A stretch of DNA of 64,000 bases, taken from NCBI RefSeq assembly GCF_015277815.1, contig NZ_CP063813.1:806001-870000 (forward strand), read 5' to 3'. Of this stretch, positions 21,749 through 33,718 are shown one piece after another. The position numbers and the translations under genes are program-made. How positions within the stretch are numbered: position 1 is the stretch's first letter; every line of letters starts with the position of its first letter. A model generated the notes under the pieces. It was given only the letters and a program-made list of their open reading frames with translations, searched no databases and was not told the DNA's origin. The DNA is from Microbacterium atlanticum (GTDB lineage: Bacteria > Actinomycetota > Actinomycetes > Actinomycetales > Microbacteriaceae).

Positions 21749-21763
21749 TAGCGTCTGATCATG
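21749..21763 (+). promoter_or_regulatory. Leaderless promoter of ligD-polymerase gene
   Basis: TAGCGT (21749-21754), six bases, then ATG at 21761. Confidence 0.6.
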
Positions 21764-22792
21764 GCGTCCCCGCGCATCACCCTCACCGTCCCCGGTCCGA
21801 ACGGCGACCGGGAGGTGGGGATCTCCAACCCCGACCGCGTGATCTGGCCGCAGCTCGGGATCACCAAGCGCGAGCTCGCCGAGTACCTCATCGCGGTGCA
21901 GGGGCCCTTCCTGGCCGCCAACGGCGACCGGCCCGTCTCGCTGGAACGGTTCCCCGAGGGCGTCGAGGGGGAGCGGTTCTACTCCAAGAATCCGCCCAAG
22001 GGCGCGCCGTCGTTCGTGGAGTCGCGCACCGTGACGTACAACAGCGGGCGGCGGCATCCGCAGATCGTCCTCACCGAGATCGCCGCGGCCGTGTGGGCAG
22101 TGCAGATGAACACGATCGTGTTCCACCCGTGGGCCTCGCTGACCGCGAACACCGACAACCCCGTCGAGCTGCGCATCGACCTCGACCCGCAGCCGGGCAC
22201 GGACTTCGCGGATGCCGCGGCCGTGGCCCCCGCGATGCGCGACGTGCTCGCCGAAGCGGGACTCACGGCGTTCCTCAAGACCAGCGGCAACCGCGGCATC
22301 CACGTGTTCTGCCCGATCGAGCCGGAGTGGGAGTTCCTCGACGTGCGGCACGCGGTCATCGCCGCGGGGCGCGAGCTGGAGCGGCGGCATCCCGACAAGG
22401 TCACGATGAACTGGTGGAAGGAGGAGCGCGGGAAGCGCATCTTCATCGACTTCAACCAGGCCAACCGCGACCGCACGATGGCCGGCGCCTACAGTCCGCG
22501 GGCGCTTCCCACGGCGACCGTGTCGACCCCGCTGACGTGGGAAGAGCTCGAGGCGGGCATCGACCCCGCCTCGTTCACGGTGCGGACGGTGCCCCAGCGC
22601 CTCGCCGACTCCGGCGACCCGTGGGCCGACCTGCTCGCCGAGCCCGGACGGATCGACACGCTCCTGGAGTGGTGGCAGCGCGACCTCGACGACGGGCTCG
22701 GCGAGCTGCCGTTCCCTCCGGACTTCCCGAAGATGCCCGGCGAGCCGCCGCGTGTGCAGCCCAGCCGCATCAACCCGGAGAACTGGCAGTAA
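21761..22792 (+). CDS. LigD-type polymerase/primase domain protein (NHEJ)
   Basis: A 343-residue stand-alone polymerase domain of the LigD family. In non-homologous end joining this archaeo-eukaryotic primase fold adds nucleotides, preferably ribonucleotides, at broken ends. The first metal-binding pair is in LRIDLDPQPG and the third aspartate in RIFIDFNQANR; the segment FLKTSGNRGIHVFCPI is the family's conserved core. It lacks ligase and nuclease domains. A separate ATP-dependent ligase is encoded 8 kb away (30937-31983, opposite strand). Ku is not in the window. Confidence 0.9.
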   Translation: MASPRITLTVPGPNGDREVGISNPDRVIWPQLGITKRELAEYLIAVQGPFLAANGDRPVSLERFPEGVEGERFYSKNPPKGAPSFVESRTVTYNSGRRHPQIVLTEIAAAVWAVQMNTIVFHPWASLTANTDNPVELRIDLDPQPGTDFADAAAVAPAMRDVLAEAGLTAFLKTSGNRGIHVFCPIEPEWEFLDVRHAVIAAGRELERRHPDKVTMNWWKEERGKRIFIDFNQANRDRTMAGAYSPRALPTATVSTPLTWEELEAGIDPASFTVRTVPQRLADSGDPWADLLAEPGRIDTLLEWWQRDLDDGLGELPFPPDFPKMPGEPPRVQPSRINPENWQ

Positions 22793-22801
22793 GACGCGCC
22801 C

Positions 22802-22862
22802 GATTGCACGGCGGTTGCACGGCTCATCGTCCGCCGCGGGGCCGACGACGCTTCCGTAGCTT
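22802..22862 (+). promoter_or_regulatory. Direct-repeat promoter 1 of 3 (lipoprotein gene)
   Basis: Heptamers GATTGCA (22802-22808) and GGTTGCA (22813-22819) repeat with an 11-base period. TAGCTT, a -10 box, starts 44 bases after the second heptamer (22857-22862). The same arrangement recurs before the next two transcription units. Confidence 0.6.
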
Positions 22863-22905
22863 CGCTGGGAGCCGGAATGACCGGCCCCTGAGCATCGGAG
22901 CACAC

Positions 22906-23493
22906 ATGTCCATCCCCGGCTTCAAGCCCCATGGCATCACCAACGTCCACGTCAACCACACCGGTCCGCGATCGTCGTTCGCCCTCGCACTGGCAGGAGC
23001 CGTCATGGCGGGCGCCTTCGTCCTCACCGCGTGCGCGCCGGCCGCGAGCCCGACGGCCGCCGAGGCCACCGCGGCTTCCGAGCCGTCGCCCGCCCCGAGC
23101 GATGCGGGCGCGGCCGGCACGCAGCCCGCCGGGGGCGCGGCATCCGTCCTCGCCATCGAATCCGACGCCGTCCTGGCATGGCAGGACCGCTGGTACGACA
23201 ACTTCTGCAGCAGTGCGGTCATCGCCCTGGGCGACGAGAACTGCATCGGCATCGCGCTGGAAGGTGTCGAGCAGGCGCGCACGGCGCCCGAGCGCATCGA
23301 GGCCGAGGTGCCGTCGGGAGCGCTCGGCGACGAGCTGCGCGCCGCGGCGGCCGAGGTCGCGGCGGCCGGCGAGGCGTTCCTCGCCGCGAGCTGCGACACC
23401 GTGCCGACGGAGTGCGTCGCCGAGACCGACGACCTCACCGACGCGGTTCGGATGTACGGCGATGTCGTCGCCGAGGTGGTCGCGGCGAGCTGA
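22906..23493 (+). CDS. Putative secreted lipoprotein of unknown function
   Basis: A 195-residue protein with an unusually long N-region (22 residues) before a hydrophobic signal stretch ending in the lipobox LTAC; the lipidated cysteine would be residue 43. A Pro/Ala/Ser linker follows (about 44-85). The mature domain (about 86-195) is acidic and helical and has four cysteines (NFCSS, ENCIG, ASCDT, TECVA) that could form two disulfides. The start is supported by GGAG five bases upstream; an internal Met34 could be an alternative start but leaves too short a signal peptide. It is followed by a strong terminator. Shared promoter repeats tie it to the protease and SARP genes downstream. Family not recognised. 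Confidence 0.75.
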   Translation: MSIPGFKPHGITNVHVNHTGPRSSFALALAGAVMAGAFVLTACAPAASPTAAEATAASEPSPAPSDAGAAGTQPAGGAASVLAIESDAVLAWQDRWYDNFCSSAVIALGDENCIGIALEGVEQARTAPERIEAEVPSGALGDELRAAAAEVAAAGEAFLAASCDTVPTECVAETDDLTDAVRMYGDVVAEVVAAS

Positions 23494-23507
23494 CCCGCCG
23501 TACCCGG

Positions 23508-23541
23508 GAGCGGGCTGCGATCGACGGATCGCAGCCCGCTC
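23508..23541 (+). terminator. Strong hairpin terminator
   Basis: Perfect 15-base arms GAGCGGGCTGCGATC (23508-23522) and GATCGCAGCCCGCTC (23527-23541) around a four-base loop, 15 bases after the lipoprotein stop. Ends with CTTCGG; no long U-tract. Confidence 0.75.
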
Positions 23542-23562
23542 TTCGGCGTCTGCGGGCCCTTC

Positions 23563-23624
23563 GATTGCGCAGCGGTTGCACGGTGCAACGCCCGCCCCGC
23601 AGCACCGTTGCACGCCAATAGCTT
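23563..23624 (+). promoter_or_regulatory. Direct-repeat promoter 2 of 3 (protease gene)
   Basis: GATTGCG (23563-23569) and GGTTGCA (23574-23580) repeat with an 11-base period. TAGCTT (23619-23624) starts 45 bases after the second heptamer. The second heptamer is part of a perfect dyad TTGCAC-G-GTGCAA (23576-23588), and a third copy, CGTTGCA (23606-23612), lies six bases before the -10 box. The ATG at 23633 is eight bases after the -10, so the message is almost leaderless. Confidence 0.6.
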
Positions 23625-23632
23625 GCTCAACC

Positions 23633-25216
23633 ATGAACACGACCACACACCGCTCACGCCGCGGCCTCGCTCTCGCGGGTGCCGCCCTCACGGCCACGTC
23701 GGCGCTCGCGCTGACCGGCTGCATGTCCTTCACCGTCTCGCCCGGCCAGGGCGCCGCCGGCGTGGCCGGCGGCGCCGGAGGCGTCGGCTTCGACGACATC
23801 CAGACCGCCGCCATCCAGATCGAGGCCGTCGGCACGTTCGTCTCGCCCGAGATGGGCGGATACGAAGCAGCCGGACGCGGCTCGGGGTTCCTCATCAGCG
23901 AGGACGGCCTGGCCGTCACCAACAACCACGTCGTCGTCGGCGCCGGCACGCTCAAGGTGTGGCGCGGCGGCGACACGTCCGAGACGCTCAACGCGAAGGT
24001 CCTCGGCTCGTCGGAGTGCCTCGACCTCGCGGTCATCCAGCTGCAGGAGGACGACTACCCGTACTTCTCGTGGCACGAGGGCGACATCACCACCGCCACC
24101 GACGTCTACGCGGCCGGGTTCCCGCTGGGGGACCCCGAGTTCACGATGACGCGCGGCATCGTGTCGAAGGCCGACACGGCGGTCGACACCCCGTGGGCGT
24201 CACTCGACCACGTCATCGAGCACGACGCGCGCATCCGCGGCGGCAACTCGGGCGGTCCGCTCGTCGACGCCGACGGAAGGCTCATCGGCGTGAACTACGC
24301 CGGCAACGACCTCCACGACCAGAACCTCGCGATCCACCGCGACGAGGTGCAGCAGGTGCTCGACCAGCTGGCCGCCGGCGAGAGCGTGCTCAGCCTCGGC
24401 ATCAACGGCACCGGCCTCATGACCGAGGAGGGCGAGGGCCTGGGCATCTGGGTGAACTCGGTCGCCTCGGGCTCGGCCGCCGACAAGGCCGGCGTCGAGC
24501 CCGGCGACCTCATCACCAAGATGGAGGGTGTCAGCGTCGGCACCGACGGCACGATGGCCGACTACTGCGACGTGCTGCGCACCCACGGGCAGGATGCGAC
24601 CCTGGGAGTCGAGCTGTACCGCCCCGCGGACGGCATCTACTACACCGGCCAGTTCAACGGCGAGCCCGTCGATGGCGTCTCGGTCGCGAGCGAGGCGGGC
24701 GCGAGCTCGGGCGGCTCCGGCGGCGGCGCCAGCGCCGCGGCGGACTTCGTGTCGGTCGTCGACGACACCGGCAGCGTGACCGTCGACGTGCCCGAGGCGT
24801 GGTCGAGCATCGACACCAGCGTCTACACCGACCCTCGCGGCGGTCAGTGGGCCCGCATCGACGCCTCGACCGACGTCGCCGCGTTCGCGAGCGGCTGGTC
24901 GGTGCCCGGTGTCTCGGTGGTGGCGGCTCCCGCAGCCACCGCGACGATCCAGCCCGAGGAGTGGCTGCAGATGACCGCCGACTACCTCACCCAGTCCGGC
25001 TGCTCGCAGCAGGCGATCGACGAGTACGCCGACGACCTGCACTCGGGAGTCTTCCAGTACTGGACGGGCTGCGGTGAGACGGCCGCGGACTACCTGATGC
25101 TCGCCGCGTACTCCAACGACGGCCAGTACCTCATCGTGCTGTCGGTCACCGCGCTGAGCGAGGGCGACTTCACCGCGATCGACCGCGCGCTGGGAAGCTT
25201 CCAGGCGGCGTTCTGA
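23633..25216 (+). CDS. HtrA/DegP-like S1C serine protease, lipoprotein
   Basis: A 527-residue secreted protease anchored by lipid at Cys30 (lipobox LTGC). The trypsin-like domain (about 60-255) has the triad H99 (TNNHVVV), D131 (CLDLAVI) and S206 (RGGNSGGPLV). A PDZ domain (about 265-360, GIWVNSVASGSAADKAGVEPGDLI) follows. After a Gly/Ser linker there is a C-terminal domain (about 380-527) of unknown family with two cysteines. HtrA-type proteases degrade or refold damaged exported proteins. Lipid anchoring replaces the usual N-terminal membrane helix. It is followed by a hairpin terminator and shares promoter repeats with its two neighbours, so it is probably co-regulated with them. Confidence 0.88.
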   Translation: MNTTTHRSRRGLALAGAALTATSALALTGCMSFTVSPGQGAAGVAGGAGGVGFDDIQTAAIQIEAVGTFVSPEMGGYEAAGRGSGFLISEDGLAVTNNHVVVGAGTLKVWRGGDTSETLNAKVLGSSECLDLAVIQLQEDDYPYFSWHEGDITTATDVYAAGFPLGDPEFTMTRGIVSKADTAVDTPWASLDHVIEHDARIRGGNSGGPLVDADGRLIGVNYAGNDLHDQNLAIHRDEVQQVLDQLAAGESVLSLGINGTGLMTEEGEGLGIWVNSVASGSAADKAGVEPGDLITKMEGVSVGTDGTMADYCDVLRTHGQDATLGVELYRPADGIYYTGQFNGEPVDGVSVASEAGASSGGSGGGASAAADFVSVVDDTGSVTVDVPEAWSSIDTSVYTDPRGGQWARIDASTDVAAFASGWSVPGVSVVAAPAATATIQPEEWLQMTADYLTQSGCSQQAIDEYADDLHSGVFQYWTGCGETAADYLMLAAYSNDGQYLIVLSVTALSEGDFTAIDRALGSFQAAF

Positions 25217-25234
25217 CACCTGGGCGACACGGAG

Positions 25235-25275
25235 GAGCGGATGCCGCGGCACACTGCGTGCCGCGGCATCCGCTC
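25235..25275 (+). terminator. Strong hairpin terminator after protease gene
   Basis: Perfect 18-base arms (25235-25252 and 25258-25275) around a five-base loop. The stem contains GGATGCCGCGG and its complement, like the hairpins at 33721 and 52262. Confidence 0.75.
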
Positions 25276-25289
25276 GCTCGTGGGTGGCG

Positions 25290-25385
25290 GATTGCAGCGC
25301 GCCGCGCCTGCCGACCCGTCCGCGATTGCATCAAGATTGCACCGTGACCCGCGCCGGGCGGCGCGGGCCGCGGCGCGCCTAGCAT
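25290..25385 (+). promoter_or_regulatory. Direct-repeat promoter 3 of 3 (SARP operon)
   Basis: GATTGCA occurs three times, at 25290-25296, 25324-25330 and 25335-25341; the last two are exactly 11 bases apart. TAGCAT, the -10 box, is at 25380-25385, 45 bases after the last copy starts. If the regulator encoded here is the binder, this would be autoregulation. Confidence 0.6.
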
Positions 25386-25420
25386 CCTGAGAGACCACGA
25401 ACCGGAGGAGACCGACGCGC

Positions 25421-28192
25421 ATGGGGATCGACATCGAACTGCTCGGGGCGTTCGGCCTGCGGATCGACGGGAGCGCGGTGCCGGTGCGCGGCGACCTCCC
25501 GCGCGCCCTGCTCGCGCGTCTGGCGAGCACGCCGCGCGAGCTCGTCCCGTCGGAGGAGCTCATCGCCGACGTCTGGGCAGATCGTCCCGAGAACGTGGTC
25601 TCGACGCTCCGTGCGCACCTGTCGCGACTGCGCAGCGCCGGCCTCGGCGCGTCGATCGTCGGCGCGCGCGGCGGCTACCTCATCGACATCCCGCGGGAGC
25701 GGGTCGACCTCACGCGGTTCCGCGACGACCTCGCGCAGGCCGCGCAGATCACCGACGCCGAGCAGCACCTGGCCCGCCTCGTCGAGCTGGCGGGGATCGC
25801 GGGGCAGGAGCCGCTCGCCGACCTCGACGGGCATCCGTTCCTGGCGCGGCTGCGCGCCGATCACCTGGAGGAGCGGCGGCTGCTGGACGAGGACCTCGCC
25901 GAATCGGCCATCGAGCTGGGCGACGACAGCCTCGCCACCGCCGTGCTGGCCGGAACCGTGGAACGCCACCCGCTGCACGAGCGGCCGGTGCGGCTGCTCG
26001 CCCTCGCCCTCGCGCGCTCCGCGCGCTACGCCGACGCGCTGGCCGTGCTGGACGGCTACCGCGAGCGGCTCACCGACCAGGGGCTCGACGCCTCGGCCCG
26101 CGTGGACGCGCTGCGGGCCTCGATCGTGCGGCTCGACCCCGCCGTCGTCGCGCCGATCGGCATCGGCGGGACGGTCAACCGCGTCGGCATCGCCATCCCG
26201 CTGACCCGCTTCATCGGACGCGGGAGCGACCTGCTCGCCCTGCGCGAGGCCCGGCGCGGGCACCGGCTGGTCACCGTCGTGGGGCCGGCGGGAGTGGGCA
26301 AGACCCGGATCGCCGTGGAGCTCGCGCGCGAGGCGACCACCGCCCTGGACGACGACCAGTACATGGTGGACCTCGCCGACATCCGCGACCCCGACGACGT
26401 CGTGGCCGCCATCGCTGCCGTCGTCCGGGCGCGCGAGCTCAGCATCGACGGCATCGTGCGCCGCCTCAGCCGCGGTCGCGTGCTCCTGGTGCTCGACAAC
26501 GCCGACCATGTGATCGGCGCCCTCGCCGTCGCCGTCGACGCCCTGCTGGCCCAGACCGAGCACCTGCGCATCGTCGTGACCAGTCGCGAATCGCTGCGCC
26601 TCGCGCAGGAGCACGTCGTCGTGCTGCGTCCGCTCGTCGGCGACGACGCGGAGGACGCCTGGCGGCTGTTCAGCGAGCGGGCCGCGGATGCGCGCGGTGG
26701 CCGCGCCTTCCACGACGAGGAGCTCGCCGAGGCCCGGCAGCTGTGCGCGCAGCTGGAGGGAATCCCGCTCGCGCTCGAGCTCGCGGCGGCGCGGCTGGAC
26801 GTGCTGGACGTCGAGCAGGTGCGCGAGGGCATCGGCGGCCGCGGGGCGGGCACCGGCCGGCACGACAGCGTGCGCGCCGCGATCGGCTGGACGTTCGACG
26901 AGCTCGACGACGACCAGCGGGCGCTCCTGGCGGACGTCGCCCGGTTCGCCGGGACCTTCACCGTCGGCGCCGCGGCCGGTACGAGCGGTCTGGACACCGC
27001 CCGGACGTCCGAGCTCCTGATGCAGCTGGTCGGTCGCTCGCTCGTCGCCGTCGACCGCAGCGGCACCGGCCGGCGGCGATTCCGCGTGCTCGAGTCGACG
27101 CGCGAGTTCCTCGCCGATCGCGACGACCCCGCCCGCGTCGCCGCGTGGCGGCTGAGGCACCGCTGGTGGTTCGCCGACCTCGCCAGCCGGCTCGGCCCGA
27201 CCCTGCGCACGTTCGAGGCCCGCGACACCATGGCCGTGCTCGACGGCTTCCGCGCGGATCTCGCCGTCGCGTTCGAAGGCGCCATCGAGGCCGGCGATCG
27301 CGAGGCGGCGGTGCGCATCGCGGGCTGGCAGGCGCAGTACTGGTTCCTCCGCGGGCTGCTGCGGGAGGGCCGCACCCGTGTCGAGCGGGCCCTCGCGCTG
27401 CCGGGCGACCCGACCGACTCGGACGGGCTGGCTCTCACCGAGCTCGCCAACCTCGCCTACCAGACCGGCGACGCGATGGCCGGGTTCGAGGCGATCGCCC
27501 GCGCCCGCGCGGAGGGGGAGCGTCGCTCGGACGCCTCGGTCACCGCGGTCGCGCTGTCGCGCGAGGCGTTCGGGCGGTCGATGTTCGGCGAGCCGGACCT
27601 CGGCGAGCAGCTGATGGCGCAGGCGCTGGACCTGCTCCCCGACGCCCAGGCCTGGGCGCGCGCCGAGGTCCACATGTCGCTCGGCCAGCTGCGACGGGCG
27701 CAGGCGCGGCCGGACGACGCGCTCGCGGCGCTCAGCGAGTCGCACCGCATCGCATCCTCGGTCGGCTACACGTGGATGATCACGTCGTCGCAGTACATCA
27801 TGGCCAAGTCGCTCGTCGACGCACGACGGCCACGCGAGGCGATCGCCGTCGCGCGCAGCGCGATCGCGGCTGCGCGTGCGAACGAGGACGCCGCCGGTGC
27901 CCTCGCCGTCGTGCACGTCGCGGCCGGCGCGTGCGCGTTCGTGGAGCGGCACGAGGTGGGCGCGCGCCTCATGGGCGCGGTGGACGAGCTCGGACGGCGC
28001 TACGACTACGACATCGCCGCCGCGGAGGGCGACGATGCGCGCCGCCTGCGGGAGGCCGTCGCGCAGGGTCTCACCCCCGGCGAGTTCGAGCACGAGTACC
28101 GCAACGGGCGCCGGCTCGGGTGGGACGAGGTCTCGGCGCTGATCGAGCGTCTTCCGCAGACCGCGCCGCTCCCCGCCGAGGCGACGGCGTGA
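25421..28192 (+). CDS. SARP/AfsR-like transcriptional regulator (wHTH-BTAD-NB-ARC-TPR)
   Basis: A 923-residue regulator. It has an OmpR-like winged helix (about 1-90, SEELIADVWADRPENVVSTLRAHLSRLR), a bacterial transcriptional activation domain (about 95-245), an NB-ARC-type ATPase (about 260-520) and a TPR-like helical C-terminus. Walker A is VVGPAGVGKTRIAVE with K294; Walker B is VLLVLDNADHV; GLPLALE-like motif appears as GIPLALELAAARLDVL. Such proteins bind 11-bp-spaced direct repeats and activate antibiotic or stress genes; the ATPase and TPR parts sense a signal. GGAGGAG lies ten bases before the ATG. Its stop overlaps the start of a paralog (GTGA). Confidence 0.9.
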   Translation: MGIDIELLGAFGLRIDGSAVPVRGDLPRALLARLASTPRELVPSEELIADVWADRPENVVSTLRAHLSRLRSAGLGASIVGARGGYLIDIPRERVDLTRFRDDLAQAAQITDAEQHLARLVELAGIAGQEPLADLDGHPFLARLRADHLEERRLLDEDLAESAIELGDDSLATAVLAGTVERHPLHERPVRLLALALARSARYADALAVLDGYRERLTDQGLDASARVDALRASIVRLDPAVVAPIGIGGTVNRVGIAIPLTRFIGRGSDLLALREARRGHRLVTVVGPAGVGKTRIAVELAREATTALDDDQYMVDLADIRDPDDVVAAIAAVVRARELSIDGIVRRLSRGRVLLVLDNADHVIGALAVAVDALLAQTEHLRIVVTSRESLRLAQEHVVVLRPLVGDDAEDAWRLFSERAADARGGRAFHDEELAEARQLCAQLEGIPLALELAAARLDVLDVEQVREGIGGRGAGTGRHDSVRAAIGWTFDELDDDQRALLADVARFAGTFTVGAAAGTSGLDTARTSELLMQLVGRSLVAVDRSGTGRRRFRVLESTREFLADRDDPARVAAWRLRHRWWFADLASRLGPTLRTFEARDTMAVLDGFRADLAVAFEGAIEAGDREAAVRIAGWQAQYWFLRGLLREGRTRVERALALPGDPTDSDGLALTELANLAYQTGDAMAGFEAIARARAEGERRSDASVTAVALSREAFGRSMFGEPDLGEQLMAQALDLLPDAQAWARAEVHMSLGQLRRAQARPDDALAALSESHRIASSVGYTWMITSSQYIMAKSLVDARRPREAIAVARSAIAAARANEDAAGALAVVHVAAGACAFVERHEVGARLMGAVDELGRRYDYDIAAAEGDDARRLREAVAQGLTPGEFEHEYRNGRRLGWDEVSALIERLPQTAPLPAEATA

Positions 28193-30921
28193 CAGCCGTG
28201 CGCATCGCGCTCTTCGGCGCCTTCGAGGTGTCCGGCGACGGTGCGCCCGAGGCGGTGCGGGGCACCATCCCGCAGGCGATCCTCGCGCGGCTCGCCCTCG
28301 AGCCCGGACGCGTCTTCTCGGCCGACGAGCTCGTCGAGGCACTGTGGTCGGAGCCGACCGCCGCCGTCGTCAGCAGCCTCCGCGCGCACATCTCCCGCCT
28401 GCGCGCCCGCGGGTGGGGCGAGGCGCTCGTCGGCGGCCGCGCGGGCTACCGACTCGAGCTGCCCCCGCAGGCGGTCGACATCGTCCGCTACCGCGCTCTC
28501 GTCGCCGGGAACGGCGCCTCGTCGCGCGCGGCCGAGCTCGAGGACGCCGACCGCCTGTGGCGCGGCGCGCCGCTCAGCGGGTTTGGCGAGTTCCCGTTCG
28601 CCCGGCCCGTCGCGGAGGACCTGGCAGCGCTCCGTCGAACCGCACTCCTCGAGCTGACCAATCTGCGACTGGAGGCGGGGGATGCCGCGGGGGCGGTCGC
28701 CGCGATCTCGCCGCTGGCGCAGGACCTCGGCGACGAAGAGATCGGCGCGCTGTACGCCCGCGCCCTCGACCGCTCGGGGCGGACGGCCGATGCCCTGGCG
28801 ACGATCGACGCGCGCGCCACCGCGCTGCGTGACACCGGCACCCGCCCGCCGCGGGACCTCGACGCCCTGCGGCTCGCGATCGCCCGGCAGGACGAGGCCG
28901 AACCTGCCGTGGTCGACCGCCCCGTCGACCGTGTCGGGATCCCGGTCCCCGTCACGAGGTTCGTCGGACGCGAGAATGAGCTCGAGGTCATCCGGCGCGG
29001 CCGCGCCGAGTCGCGCCTGGTCACGCTCACCGGCCCCGCGGGGGTCGGCAAGACGCGCCTGGCGATCGAGGTCGCCCGGCGCGCACGCGCCGACGAGGAC
29101 GAGCAGCAGCGGCTCATCGACCTCGCGGTCGTCTCGTCGCCCGACCGCGTCGTGGGCGCCGTCGCCGACGCCGTCGGCGCGGCCGCCCACTCCGTCGACG
29201 CGATCGCCGACGCGCTCGGCGGCCGGCGGACGCTGATGATCCTCGACAACGCCGAGCACGTGCTGGGCTCCACGGCATCCCTGGCCGCCCGGCTGCTCGA
29301 GCGATGCGCCGGGCTCAGCATGCTGGTCACGAGCCGGGAGTCGATGCGGATGCCCGGGGAGCGGGTCATCGTCCTCGATCCGCTCTCGAGCGCGGCCGCC
29401 GGTGACGCCGTCGCGCTGTTCCTGCAGCGTGCGAGCGAGTCCAGCGGCATCCGCGACTGGAGCGCCGCCGAGATCGGCGAGGCTCAGCGCCTGTGCACCC
29501 AGCTGGACGGACTGCCGCTCGCCATCGAGCTCGCCGCCTCGCGCCTGGACGTCCTCACCCTGGAGGAGCTCGCCTCGTCGCTCGACGCGGCACCCACCGG
29601 GCCGCGGCGCGGAGGCCGTCATGACTCGATCGACGACGCGATCGCGTGGAGCGTGGCGACGACGTCGCCCGCCGAGCGTGCGCTACTGGCGCAGCTGGCG
29701 GAGTTCTCGGGCTCGTTCACCCTCGACGCCGTCGCCGGCGTGTGCGACGCCGGCGACGGCGACCCCCGAGAGGTCGCGGTCGCCCTCGCGCGCAAGTCGC
29801 TCGTCGCCGCGGTCGCGCCGACGCCCGGCGAGCGCCGGTTCCGCGTGCTCGACACCGTCAAGCGCCACATGCGGGCGCGGCATGCGATCGAGGATCTCGA
29901 GTCGTGGCACCGGCGGCACGCGGCGTGGATGACCGAGGACGCCGAGCGCCGGGCGCCGCTGCTGCGCACCGCCGACAACCGCCGCGCACGGGCGGCGCTC
30001 ACCGCCAACCGCGCCGACCTGGACGACGCGTGCCGGCGGCTCATCGACGGAGGGGACCGCCCCACGGCCGTGCGTCTGGTCGCCGCGCTCGCATGGCACT
30101 GGTACGAGCGCGGCAGCGGACACGAGGCGATCGCGACGATCGATCGGGTCCTCGACCTGCCCGGCCCGACCGCCCCCGACGCGGAGGCGACGGCGCTGTA
30201 CGCCGCGTCGTTCATGCGGTCGGTCTCGGGTGACGTGCTGGCGACGCTGCGCACCATGGAGAGGTTCGCGCTGGTCGCCGACCAGGCCCAGGACCCGTCG
30301 CTGCCCATGATCGCGCACACGATGCAGGCGACGATCGCCGCGCACGGCGAGTCGGTCGAGGCGGCGGAGGCGGAGCTCGCCACGGCCCAGCGGCACCGGG
30401 AGCGCCTCGCCGACGACAGAGTATGGGCGGTCGTGGACCACCTGTACATCCGCGGCGACGCACTGCGGGTGATGGGACGGCCCGCGCAGGCGCTGGACTC
30501 GCTCGAGCAGGCCTACCGGCTCGCCACCGAGCTCGGGCACACGTGGGCGCTCGCCTCCACCTGCTACATCACGGGCAAGGTGCTGACGCAGGTCGGCCGT
30601 CCGCGCGATGCGATGGGGATGCTGCGGACCGCCGCGCACCGCTCCGCCGAGCGGGAGGATGCCACGAGCACGGTCGCCGCCGTCAGCGGGTACGCGATCG
30701 CCCTCGTGGAGGCCGGCGAGCATCGCCGCGCCGCCGAGCTCTTCGGCGCGGTGGACGCGCTCGGCCCGCGGTTCGGCTTCCACCCCGTCCTCTCGGACGG
30801 CTCCTACGCGGCGCCCTTCCGCGAGCGCGCCGCTGCCGGGCTGGGAGCGGCGGAGTGGGACGAGGCGATCGCGCGCGGGCGGGACCGAGATCTGCGCTGG
30901 GCGCTCGCCCAGCTCGCGTGA
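28189..30921 (+). CDS. SARP/AfsR-like regulator, tandem paralog
   Basis: A 910-residue protein of the same domain order as its upstream neighbour: winged helix (ADELVEALWSEPTAAVVSSLRAHISRLRARG), BTAD, NB-ARC (LTGPAGVGKTRLAIE, K288; LMILDNAEHV; GLPLAIELAASRLDVL) and a TPR-rich end. Several stretches match the first paralog nearly word for word, for example DRVGIPVPVTRFVGREN against NRVGIAIPLTRFIGRGS. The GTG start at 28189 sits in the stop of the first gene, so both are made together and may form mixed dimers. It ends 15 bases before the converging ligase gene, with no hairpin in between. Confidence 0.9.
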   Translation: MTAVRIALFGAFEVSGDGAPEAVRGTIPQAILARLALEPGRVFSADELVEALWSEPTAAVVSSLRAHISRLRARGWGEALVGGRAGYRLELPPQAVDIVRYRALVAGNGASSRAAELEDADRLWRGAPLSGFGEFPFARPVAEDLAALRRTALLELTNLRLEAGDAAGAVAAISPLAQDLGDEEIGALYARALDRSGRTADALATIDARATALRDTGTRPPRDLDALRLAIARQDEAEPAVVDRPVDRVGIPVPVTRFVGRENELEVIRRGRAESRLVTLTGPAGVGKTRLAIEVARRARADEDEQQRLIDLAVVSSPDRVVGAVADAVGAAAHSVDAIADALGGRRTLMILDNAEHVLGSTASLAARLLERCAGLSMLVTSRESMRMPGERVIVLDPLSSAAAGDAVALFLQRASESSGIRDWSAAEIGEAQRLCTQLDGLPLAIELAASRLDVLTLEELASSLDAAPTGPRRGGRHDSIDDAIAWSVATTSPAERALLAQLAEFSGSFTLDAVAGVCDAGDGDPREVAVALARKSLVAAVAPTPGERRFRVLDTVKRHMRARHAIEDLESWHRRHAAWMTEDAERRAPLLRTADNRRARAALTANRADLDDACRRLIDGGDRPTAVRLVAALAWHWYERGSGHEAIATIDRVLDLPGPTAPDAEATALYAASFMRSVSGDVLATLRTMERFALVADQAQDPSLPMIAHTMQATIAAHGESVEAAEAELATAQRHRERLADDRVWAVVDHLYIRGDALRVMGRPAQALDSLEQAYRLATELGHTWALASTCYITGKVLTQVGRPRDAMGMLRTAAHRSAEREDATSTVAAVSGYAIALVEAGEHRRAAELFGAVDALGPRFGFHPVLSDGSYAAPFRERAAAGLGAAEWDEAIARGRDRDLRWALAQLA

Positions 30922-30936: not shown

Positions 30937-31983
30937 TCAGACCAGCACGTCGGCCAGATCGTACGCTGTCACGACCTCGAGCTGCTCGTACGTGCACGAC
31001 CGCGGGTCGCGGTCGGGGCGCCAGCGCTCGAACTGCACGGTGTGGCGGAAGCGCCAGCCCTCGAGCTGGTCGTAGCGCACCTCGAGCACCCGCTCCGGGC
31101 GCAGCCGCACGAACGAGGAGTCGGCCCGGCCGGACTGGAAGCGCGACTTCTCGCCTTCGCCCCGCAGCACCTCGCCGTCGGCGTCGCGCTCCACGAGCGG
31201 GGCGAGCTCGTCGATGAGCTCGAGCCGGCGCTTGTCGCTCCACGCGGCGACCCCGCCGACCGGGTACAGCGTGCCGTCCTCGCCGTAGAGCCCCACGAGG
31301 AGGGAGCCGACGCCCTGTCCGGACTTGTGGATGCGATAGCCGAGCGCCACGACGTCGGCGGTGCGGGCGTGCTTGATCTTGAACATCGAGCGCTTGCCCG
31401 GGGCGTACGGCTGGTCGAGGGGTTTGGCCACGACGCCGTCGAGGCCCGCCCCCTCGAACTCGGCGAGCCAGCGCCGCGCGAGCTCGGGGTCGTCCGTCGT
31501 GCGCGTGACGTGGACGGGATGGGGAACGCCGCGCAGCAGCGTCACGAGCGCCTCGCGCCTCGTGCCGAACGGCTCCGCTTGCAGGTCGCGGTCGCCGACG
31601 GCGAGCAGGTCGAACGCGATGAACATCGCCGGCGTCTGCTCGGCGAGCATGTTCACCCGCGACGCCGCGGGATGGATGCGCTGCGACAGCGACTCCCAGT
31701 CCAGGCGCCGCCGCCCGTCGCGATCGACCGGCACCACGATCTCGCCGTCGAGCAGGCACGGCTCGGGGAGGACGCGGGCGAACGCCTCGACGAGCTCGGG
31801 GAAGTACCGCGTCAGCGGCTTGGCGCCCCGCGACCCGATCTCGACGTCCTCGCCGTCCCACGAGATGAGGGCGCGGAACCCGTCCCACTTCGGCTCGTAG
31901 CTGAGACCGCCGGGCGCCTTCGCCGGATCGGGGATGTCGGGCACGGACTTCGCCAGCATCGGCGCGGGGATCTCGTACGGCAT
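30937..31983 (-). CDS. ATP-dependent DNA ligase (LigC-type)
   Basis: A 348-residue ligase with a nucleotidyltransferase domain (about 1-200) and an OB-fold (about 210-340). The lysine that takes up AMP is in YEPKWDGFRA, followed by IGSRGAKPLTRYFPEL (motif Ia), CLLDGEIVV (motif III), AGLDGVVAKPL (motif IV) and MFKIKHARTADVV (motif V). Small stand-alone ligases of this type (LigC) act in repair or as helpers in end joining. I chose ATG 31983, which has GGAG three bases upstream; an ATG nine bases earlier is possible. It may work with the LigD-type polymerase at 21761. Confidence 0.92.
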   Translation of the reverse strand: MPYEIPAPMLAKSVPDIPDPAKAPGGLSYEPKWDGFRALISWDGEDVEIGSRGAKPLTRYFPELVEAFARVLPEPCLLDGEIVVPVDRDGRRRLDWESLSQRIHPAASRVNMLAEQTPAMFIAFDLLAVGDRDLQAEPFGTRREALVTLLRGVPHPVHVTRTTDDPELARRWLAEFEGAGLDGVVAKPLDQPYAPGKRSMFKIKHARTADVVALGYRIHKSGQGVGSLLVGLYGEDGTLYPVGGVAAWSDKRRLELIDELAPLVERDADGEVLRGEGEKSRFQSGRADSSFVRLRPERVLEVRYDQLEGWRFRHTVQFERWRPDRDPRSCTYEQLEVVTAYDLADVLV

Positions 31984-32140
31984 GCGCTCCATCCTGCCGC
32001 TGCGCGCCGACACCCGACAGTCCCGGCGCGCCCCGCCCAACCTGCCCGGCCCGGCTCGCCCGGCCCGGATGGATGCGCGACGGCGCGGGAGTGGGCAGAC
32101 TCGGAAAGCGCCCGCGTCAGCCCCGGGCACGGAGGTGAGC

Positions 32141-33718
32141 ATGGACGTGGTCTTCCAGTTCCTGGCCGATCGCCCGATCGTGCTGCTGTTCCTCCTCCTC
32201 GGGGTCGGCGCGGCCCTGGGGACGGTTCGCGTCGCGGGCGTCTCGCTCGGTGCCGTCGGCGTGCTCTTCGCCGCGATCGGCATCACCGCGTGGGGTGTGT
32301 CGACGGGGGTGACGATCGAACTTCCGGCAGCGGTCGGCGACCTCGGGCTCGTCGTCTTCGCGTTCTGCACCGGCCTCATCGCGGGGCCCGGGTTCTTCAA
32401 CGCGCTGCGCACCTCTTACCTGCTGATGCTCGCTGTCGCCGGCGTGCTCGTCGTGGCGGGCGGCCTGGCGTTCTGGGTCGGGTCGGCTCTCGGCATCCCG
32501 CCGCTCACCATCGCCGGAACGTTCGCCGGCGCCCTCACGAACACCCCCGCCCTCGCCGCGACCGGCGGCAGCCCGGAAGCGACCGTCGGCTACGCCAGCG
32601 CGTACGTGTACGGCGTCATCGCCGCGATGATCGGCGTCGCGCTCGCGCTGCGCTCGCGTGCGCGCGACACCGACGCGCAGGCCCCGATCGTCGGCAAGCC
32701 GATCGAGGTCGACACCACCTCGCGCCCGACCGCGGCCGACATCGCGGCCGGGTACGGCGGCCGGGTGGCGTTCTCGCGGCGGCGGCACGCCGACGGCGAG
32801 GTGGAGATCGTCGGCCCCGACACGGAGCTGGAGCCGGGTGACATCGTCAACGTCGTCGGGCCGAGCGACGACGTCGAGGCGGTGAAGACCGAGCTCGGCC
32901 ACACGTCGGCGATCGACCTCACCCGGGACCGCAGCCGTCTCGACTTCCGGCGGATCATCCTGTCGGATGTACGGCTGGCCGGACGCTCGATCGCGAGCCT
33001 GCGCCTTCCCGAGCGCTACGGTGCGACGATCGCGCAGGTGCGGCGCGGCGATGTCGACTTCGTCGGCAGCCCCGACTTCGTGCTGCACCAGGGCGATCGC
33101 CTGCGCGTGGTCGGGCCCACCGGATCCATGGGGGAGATCACCCGCTTCCTCGGCGACTCCGAGCGCGGTCTCGCCGACATCAACCCGGTCGCCCTCGGCA
33201 TCGGCGTCCTGCTCGGCATGCTGCTCGGGTCGATCGTCGTCCCGCTCCCCGGCGGCGGGCAGTTCAGCCTGGGCTACGCGGCGGGCGTGCTCGTCGTCGG
33301 GCTGATCATGGGGCGCATCGGCCGCATCGGGCGCGTGGTGACGTCGCTGCCCAACACCGCGTCGACCGTGCTCGCCGAGTTCGGGCTGCTCACCTTCCTC
33401 GCCTTCGCCGGCACCAAGGCGGGTTCGCTCATCCTCTCGGCGATCGCCTCGGGCGAGGTGGTGCGCCTGCTCGTGCTCGGCGCCGTGCTCTCGACGTTCT
33501 TCATGGGCGCGACCTTCGTGCTCGCCCGCGCCGTGTTCCGCCTCGGCGGCACGCGGTCGTCGGGCGTCATCGGCGGTGCGCAGACGAACCCGGCGATCCT
33601 CGGCTTCGCCAATTCCCGCACCGACTACGACGTCCGCGTCGCGCTCGGCTACACCCTGGTCTACCCGGCCGCGATGGTCGTCAAGATCCTGATCGCGCAG
33701 GTGCTCGTCGAGCTGTGA
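32141..33718 (+). CDS. AspT/YidE-type transporter with two TrkA-C domains
   Basis: A 525-residue membrane protein of the aspartate-alanine exchanger family. Five or so N-terminal helices (1-170) and six C-terminal helices (about 365-525) each hold a family repeat; both carry the Asn-Pro segment (GALTNTPALAAT and GAQTNPAILGFA). Between them are two RCK_C/TrkA-C-like regulatory domains (about 205-290 and 295-365), each with the signature LEPGDIVNVVGP or LHQGDRLRVVGP. The ATG at 32141 has GGAGG five bases upstream. Substrate is unknown; dicarboxylates or amino acids are plausible. It is a single-gene unit closed by a hairpin. Confidence 0.88.
   Translation: MDVVFQFLADRPIVLLFLLLGVGAALGTVRVAGVSLGAVGVLFAAIGITAWGVSTGVTIELPAAVGDLGLVVFAFCTGLIAGPGFFNALRTSYLLMLAVAGVLVVAGGLAFWVGSALGIPPLTIAGTFAGALTNTPALAATGGSPEATVGYASAYVYGVIAAMIGVALALRSRARDTDAQAPIVGKPIEVDTTSRPTAADIAAGYGGRVAFSRRRHADGEVEIVGPDTELEPGDIVNVVGPSDDVEAVKTELGHTSAIDLTRDRSRLDFRRIILSDVRLAGRSIASLRLPERYGATIAQVRRGDVDFVGSPDFVLHQGDRLRVVGPTGSMGEITRFLGDSERGLADINPVALGIGVLLGMLLGSIVVPLPGGGQFSLGYAAGVLVVGLIMGRIGRIGRVVTSLPNTASTVLAEFGLLTFLAFAGTKAGSLILSAIASGEVVRLLVLGAVLSTFFMGATFVLARAVFRLGGTRSSGVIGGAQTNPAILGFANSRTDYDVRVALGYTLVYPAAMVVKILIAQVLVEL

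Follow-up and report, generated by a model that had tools for sequence, protein, structure and literature searches.

Heptamer pairs at a fixed distance from the -10 box as candidate SARP operators of HtrA-like protease and lipoprotein genes in Microbacterium and a related genus

Regulators of the SARP family provide the closest described parallels to the system considered here. AfsR of Streptomyces coelicolor recognises the afs box, which the accessible part of one account gives as two 11-bp direct repeats, CGTT(T/C)ATCGNN (PMC10972967); in the available portion of another, the AfsR box is centred at -29.5, the 3' repeats of SARP operators lie 8 bp from the -10 box and class I CAP sites are centred at -61.5 (PMC10936776). 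In the structures of AfsR, in so far as the available portions describe them, the activator lies across the -35/spacer region and docks sigma region 4. For PimR of Streptomyces natalensis and its SARP-LAL counterparts elsewhere, the accessible sections of the reports describe an operator upstream of the -35 element and propose class I activation (PMC3367932, PMC5930380). Here we analyse a stretch of 64,000 nucleotides from Microbacterium atlanticum (contig NZ_CP063813.1, positions 806,001 to 870,000; hereafter the window), in which the promoters of a lipoprotein gene, an HtrA-like protease gene and a SARP gene (SARP1, followed by its paralogue SARP2) each carry a pair of direct heptamers upstream of a -10 box (Table 1).

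We consider it probable that these heptamer pairs serve as operators for the large SARP regulator or regulators encoded beside them, which would control a small regulon by recruiting RNA polymerase to promoters without a -35 element. This reading is built on what can be seen directly, namely that the sites exist, keep a fixed spacing, are conserved in two genera and are associated with SARP genes. A preliminary description of the window had given the three heptamer pairs and their -10 boxes, and the distances of 44, 45 and 45 bp re-read exactly (all distances run from the start of the second heptamer to the start of the -10 box). It had also called this distance unusual, and rightly so, since 37-38 bp separate the second heptamer from the -10 box here, against 8 bp in canonical SARP operators as given in the available part of the source (PMC10936776).

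The resemblance to AfsR lies in a regulator of winged helix-turn-helix and BTAD architecture with a probable NOD, two 11-bp direct repeats in apparently the same orientation, a TT core and the residue R92; the differences are the length of the gap, a centre at about -57.5 (on the inferred start) and predicted targets that comprise a protease and a lipoprotein. Unlike the canonical SARP operator, the 3' repeat is neither 8 bp from the -10 box nor overlapping a -35 element. SanG and PolR also have two heptamers, but their sites overlap the -35, as far as the accessible part of the source goes (PMC10972967). PimR is a precedent for an upstream, class-I-like operator; however, in the portions of the reports available 55 nt separate its main site from the -35 downstream of it, there is a single target and the heptamer is CGGCAAG, whereas here one 45-bp geometry recurs across many promoters and no -35 was found. 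Within the accessible portions of the literature, the only SARPs that our search found described as binding 5' of the -35 were PimR and its counterparts; neither this operator nor SARP control of HtrA turned up in any report.

A genome-wide motif search, which the preliminary description had proposed, returned the exact pattern GRTTGCRNNNNGRTTGCA only three times in the window's own genome (G000; 3,712,988 bases), at the three operators, and its reversed control not at all. The same pattern has seven matches in the other 148 genomes of the genus, one each in seven genomes, and the reversed control has one in all 149. When two mismatches are allowed, the window contains four matches against 1.51 expected (four being reached in 6 of 100 shuffles) and the whole genome 57 against 33 for the reversed control; these counts are unremarkable, so that the weight of the evidence falls on the exact matches, on where they lie and on how they are conserved. 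Three relaxed matches in the same genome (G000:C1 314046, 1437249 and 3328871) lack a -10 box at 45 bp and were left out of the regulon. The pattern VRTTGCRNNNVRTTGCR, which has a period of 10 rather than 11 and occurs in three places, was not used, and a scan for any repeated heptamer returned the repeats already described, in shifted registers, together with a small number of other, isolated pairs (L060, L143, L056, L044, L120).

Comparison with relatives, also proposed beforehand, found the pair before HtrA genes, before lipoprotein genes and in some genomes before the SARP gene. SARP1 had matches in 75 of the 149 genus genomes, 11 of them spanning at least 900 of its 923 residues: G000, G086, G051 and G047 (65-100% identity), G133, G005 and G111 (40-43%), and G060, G083, G001 and G066 (33-36%). 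HtrA was found as 21 genes in 20 of 366 genus genomes. A protein scan of a wider genome contig collection returned no relative. In group A (G000, G321, G149, G271, G051, G086 and G047) the site precedes HtrA in all seven genomes, the lipoprotein gene in G000, G086, G051, G149 and G271, and SARP1 in G000, G321 and G047. In group B (G001, G060, G066, G083, G235, G258 and G259; SARP about 32% identical) there is one site, before a divergent alpha/beta-hydrolase gene, whose product in the G083 copy belongs to the Abhydrolase_1 family. Other sites precede a hemerythrin gene and the gene for an uncharacterised protein in G047, and the gene for an uncharacterised, lipoprotein-like protein in G005. 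Two HtrA promoters contain three to four tandem heptamer copies, one of them degenerate, at the 11-bp period.

An association with SARP genes is seen for the pattern SRTTGCACGAASRTTGCR, which at up to one mismatch occurs at 31 places in 26 of the 366 genus genomes. All 15 exact places, in 12 genomes, adjoin a SARP gene, and three of the 16 one-mismatch places are at SARP loci (G149, G235, G321), the reversed control at one mismatch giving two. Among 398 genomes of the family the exact pattern occurs at three places (G066, G676, G683), and that in G683, which has neither a SARP1 match nor a -10 box at 45 bp, is probably due to chance; a related pattern in the wider contig collection gave 13 stretches, five from Microbacterium or Salinibacterium soli and eight from unrelated organisms, which we take as chance. 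In the 149-genome set, exact sites are present in 7 of the 11 genomes with a SARP1 match over at least 900 of 923 residues and in none of the other 138 (Fisher p=1e-9, ignoring the relatedness of genomes). The site precedes HtrA in all eight genomes with a SARP1 of at least 50% identity and, in a variant form, in two of four with a SARP at 39-43% (G111, G290). It is found at none of ten HtrA genes from genomes without a SARP1 match of at least 39%, one of which, G001, has a group B SARP. When seven SARP-bearing operator loci were compared by BLAST (E 1e-8; window 15-40 kb, L068, L070, L074, L075, L160 and L161), SARP was the only family common to them all, antisense-frame matches being set aside.

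Salinibacterium soli (G676), which belongs to another genus of the same family, separates the site from the regulators. Its SARP1/SARP2 pair is on contig 7 (50% and 39% identical to SARP1) and its HtrA gene (47%) is carried by contig 1 (2.0 Mb), over 350 kb away from either end, and has three tandem heptamers in 11-bp register in its promoter; the HtrA locus shares HtrA alone in the BLAST comparison. Sites are also found before SARP1, a lipoprotein gene (product 29% identical to that of the window, with the cysteines shared), a small open reading frame and, close to a third SARP, a UDP-glycosyltransferase gene (L161:4321-5688), which has a CACTGT box at 45 bp and its start codon at 58.

The recognition helices of operator-linked SARPs read LRA[HYV]xSR[LM]R or ARAYMSRLR, and those of other SARPs LRVYVSRLR, IRVYITRLR, LQTLVSRVR and similar. 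The base-contacting R92 of AfsR is conserved, as are R87, S91 and R94, and T88 is replaced by alanine; in AfsR, the available part of the structural report has R92 contacting T-38 and T88 contacting G-36 (PMC10936776). Covariation of A88 versus T88 with the site was considered and is weak, since a TTGC-type site is present in G005 despite its V88. The helices of SARP1 and SARP2 are nearly identical, so that either or both could be the binder. The preliminary description had the SARP pair binding the sites; a SARP as their reader is what the exact sites beside SARP genes, the single family common to seven loci, the HtrA gene of S. soli and the SARP-style repeats point to, and binding itself we infer.

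An alternative reader of the repeats would be an OmpR/PhoB-type response regulator belonging to a two-component system for envelope or secretion stress. Regulators of this type also bind direct repeats, and the accessible accounts of other actinobacteria describe two-component control of HtrA proteases, by MprAB in Corynebacterium and by CutRS/CssRS in the secretion stress response of Streptomyces; these resemble the present case in regulating an HtrA-like envelope protease, and differ in that the candidate regulator here is a STAND-type SARP. We nevertheless think this unlikely, because no family but SARP is common to the compared operator loci (a comparison in which response regulators were not surveyed directly), because exact sites in the 149-genome set are confined to genomes with a near full-length SARP1 match, and because HtrA genes lack the site where a SARP1 match of at least 39% is missing.

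The constancy of spacing bears on how a SARP would act. We tabulated 34 sites and set aside three G086-type SARP sites without a -10 box; among the remaining 31 the distance is 45 bp in 27 and 44 bp in four (the G000 lipoprotein, G066, G083 and G235), the best box being picked within 38-51 bp and CAGGCT of G001 being read by eye at 45 where the script chose 39. A strict TANNNT box is present at 22 sites, 21 at 45 bp and one at 44. In an independent scan for TANNNT followed by a start codon 11-15 bp on, at offsets from 20 to 74, there were 19 unique matches at 45 against four in total over the 54 other offsets; these 19 include orthologues (about ten promoter lineages), and the loci were fetched only around SARP, HtrA and motif matches. 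The variant HtrA sites of G111 and G290 (CGTTGCA gcgg CGTTAAC) are likewise at 45 bp. Across the 22 chosen sites, only the heptamers, a portion of the spacer and the -10 box carry information. A sigma-70 consensus scan of 22700-25500 found no promoter, and hence no TTGACA-like -35 with a consensus -10, and no -35 is recognisable in the 38-bp gap of the aligned sites. Many start codons lie 57-59 bp after the second heptamer, which suggests that many of these promoters give leaderless mRNAs; the HtrA start codon is 14 bp after the first base of its -10 box (TAGCTT 23619), and its mRNA would be near-leaderless.

A SARP might bind these pairs and yet repress or merely tune transcription, or it might act canonically through heptamers near the -10 box, such as CGTTGCA at 23606, but both versions seem improbable to us. 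A heptamer does stand immediately before the HtrA -10 box in G000 and G321; however, it is missing in the other 13 of 15 promoters tabulated. GATTGCA takes its place in G321, the only relative in which it is conserved, and it is absent from G086, G047 and S. soli. Repression fits poorly with the pairs lying upstream of the core promoter and not over it, and with the apparent lack of a -35, for which an activator would be expected. That the sites are functionless relics of recently duplicated promoter DNA, as their clustering in one locus in Microbacterium group A might suggest, is very improbable given that the spacing to the -10 box is constant across a 38-bp gap of 35-42% identity (38-42% between orthologous and 35% between non-orthologous promoters) and that a second genus keeps the site at an HtrA gene on a contig other than that of the SARP pair.

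Several observations weigh against SARP-operated promoters of this kind. Around thirteen of the 16 one-mismatch places of SRTTGCACGAASRTTGCR, the nearest 1.5 kb contain neither a SARP nor an HtrA gene, and TANNNT is missing at 44-46 bp, so the looser motif has a background, and the window's own genome, with different spacers, does not match SRTTGCACGAASRTTGCR. Within 300 bp of HtrA, G133 and G005 (SARP 42-43%) lack a pair of this kind. At the HtrA site of S. soli the -10 box is poor (AAGACT) and there is a leader, and the -10-like boxes of group B are CAGGCT, GAGGCT or CAGTCT. At the SARP promoter, G086, G149 and G271 have a degenerate site that lacks a -10 box at 45 bp, and a comparable remnant is present in G051; autoregulation, as the preliminary description had it, is suggested in G000, G321, G047 and S. 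soli and is not universal. Heptamer identity (81-85% between orthologous and 81% between non-orthologous promoters) arises partly by construction, the sites having been chosen by their heptamers, and many of the conserved sites come from related, non-independent genomes. Compared with canonical SARP sites, this one is displaced upstream by some 30 bp, and SARP binding and activation are predictions from sequence.

Under SARP control, two protomers (SARP1, SARP2 or both) would lie next to each other on the pair of 11-bp repeats, which span about -68 to -47, and would recruit RNA polymerase to promoters with a -10 box (often TAGCNT) and no recognisable -35, probably by contacting the C-terminal domain of the alpha subunit from a fixed distance; the strict 45-bp spacing argues for a rigid contact. 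If the start codon is +1 the site would be centred at about -57.5 and may be a class-I-like activator site, compared with about -61.5 in a class I promoter, provided that the -10 box and leaderless start are correct. The small regulon would consist of the genes for the helical lipoprotein and the HtrA-like lipoprotein protease, joined in several species by the SARP operon. The preliminary description spoke of an envelope-stress regulon, and the protease and helical lipoprotein do appear as shared targets, but sites also precede hemerythrin, glycosyltransferase and alpha/beta-hydrolase genes, and such a regulon is supported in part only. HtrA with a cysteine-rich helical lipoprotein would suit protein quality control outside the membrane, and envelope stress is a plausible guess, but only a guess because the other targets are diverse.

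More tentatively, and with appreciable doubt, we suggest that a clade of SARPs in Microbacteriaceae may have its own promoter class, in which two protomers, possibly a SARP1/SARP2 hetero-pair, sit rigidly near -57.5 and compensate for the absent -35 through a contact unlike the sigma adaptation of AfsR, in which mRNAs are mostly leaderless, and in which HtrA answers to a STAND ATPase rather than to a two-component system. If SARP operation of these promoters is true, the same SARP domain works in a second way, with far-upstream spacing and no -35; the loci would supply ready-made regulator-promoter pairs for testing that mode; and an HtrA-like quality-control protease would be under a STAND-type regulator outside antibiotic clusters.

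Table 1. Candidate operators, -10 boxes and genes of the locus (positions in the window).
Feature	Position	Strand	Remarks
Operator 1, GATTGCA 22802 and GGTTGCA 22813	22802..22819	+	11-bp period
-10 box of operator 1, TAGCTT	22857..22862	+	44 bp from start of heptamer 2
Lipoprotein	22906..23493	+	lipobox-type cysteine C43, linker, predicted helical bundle, 4 conserved Cys
Operator 2, GATTGCG 23563 and GGTTGCA 23574	23563..23580	+	
Extra CGTTGCA	23606..23612	+	ends 6 bp before HtrA -10 box
-10 box of operator 2 (HtrA), TAGCTT	23619..23624	+	45 bp from start of heptamer 2
HtrA-like lipoprotein protease	23633..25216	+	Trypsin_2, PDZ, C-terminal PsbP/Mog1-like domain
Lone extra GATTGCA	25290..25296	+	34 bp 5' of operator 3
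Operator 3, GATTGCA 25324 and GATTGCA 25335	25324..25341	+	
-10 box of operator 3 (SARP1), TAGCAT	25380..25385	+	45 bp from start of heptamer 2
SARP1	25421..28192	+	large AfsR-type SARP (winged helix-turn-helix, BTAD, NB-ARC); recognition helix LRAHLSRLR
SARP2	28189..30921	+	SARP1 paralogue, GTG start; recognition helix LRAHISRLR

For the lipoprotein unit, the operator and -10 box stood as first described and the start of the reading frame is corrected to 22906; from this start the protein matched no Pfam or NCBIfam family, and its model (mean pLDDT 73.7, above 90 in most blocks of the helical part) predicts a bundle of four long helices and one short. The HtrA-like protein scores 99.4 bits for Trypsin_2 (cut-off 27.6) and 40.7 for PDZ_6 (cut-off 27), has a lipobox-type cysteine at C30 and misses the NCBIfam cut-off for the Do family (DegP/HtrA; 136.7 versus 416.2). 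Its residues H99, D131 and S206, which we take to be the catalytic His-Asp-Ser triad, are invariant in 12 of 12 sequences. The protease part is modelled poorly (pLDDT below 50 over residues 1-369) and only the C-terminal domain (24743-25216) was used, the predicted fold of which matches PsbP best, with DcrB, MTC28 and Mog1p ranking lower.

The two SARP genes share 4 bp where SARP1 ends and SARP2 starts, and both proteins align to AfsR and EmbR chains. BTAD is matched at 43.9 bits by SARP1 and 42.9 by SARP2 (cut-off 22.1), and the winged helix Trans_reg_C at 31.8 by SARP2 (cut-off 26.2) and slightly below the cut-off, at 25.7, by SARP1. A probable NOD is matched as NB-ARC in SARP1 (32.3; cut-off 23.5) and as AAA_22 in SARP2 (34.1; cut-off 27); TPR gave only matches below cut-off, in SARP2. 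Neither was accepted as an AfsR orthologue, the NCBIfam AfsR equivalog scoring 77.8 and 96.9 bits against 1430 required. In G149 (L132:10685-13444) a SARP2 query covers residues 1-217 only (57%) and a SARP1 query covers the rest (37%). In G321 (L134:1783-1900) an additional operator, whose TAGCGT box stands at 45 bp, lies directly 5' of the SARP1 operator, and could serve an alternative leaderless, N-terminally longer SARP1 start (MNILTC...).

The locus is bordered by a LigD-type primase-polymerase gene (21761-22792) and, on the opposite strand, an ATP-dependent DNA ligase gene (30937-32412), homologues of both of which also border the G086 locus. The HtrA promoters of G186 and G019 (L116, L117) contain different, TGCA-like 11-bp repeats 52 bp before TACGGT; lying at 52 rather than 45 bp they were not counted as sites, and they possibly belong to another regulator of the same protease.

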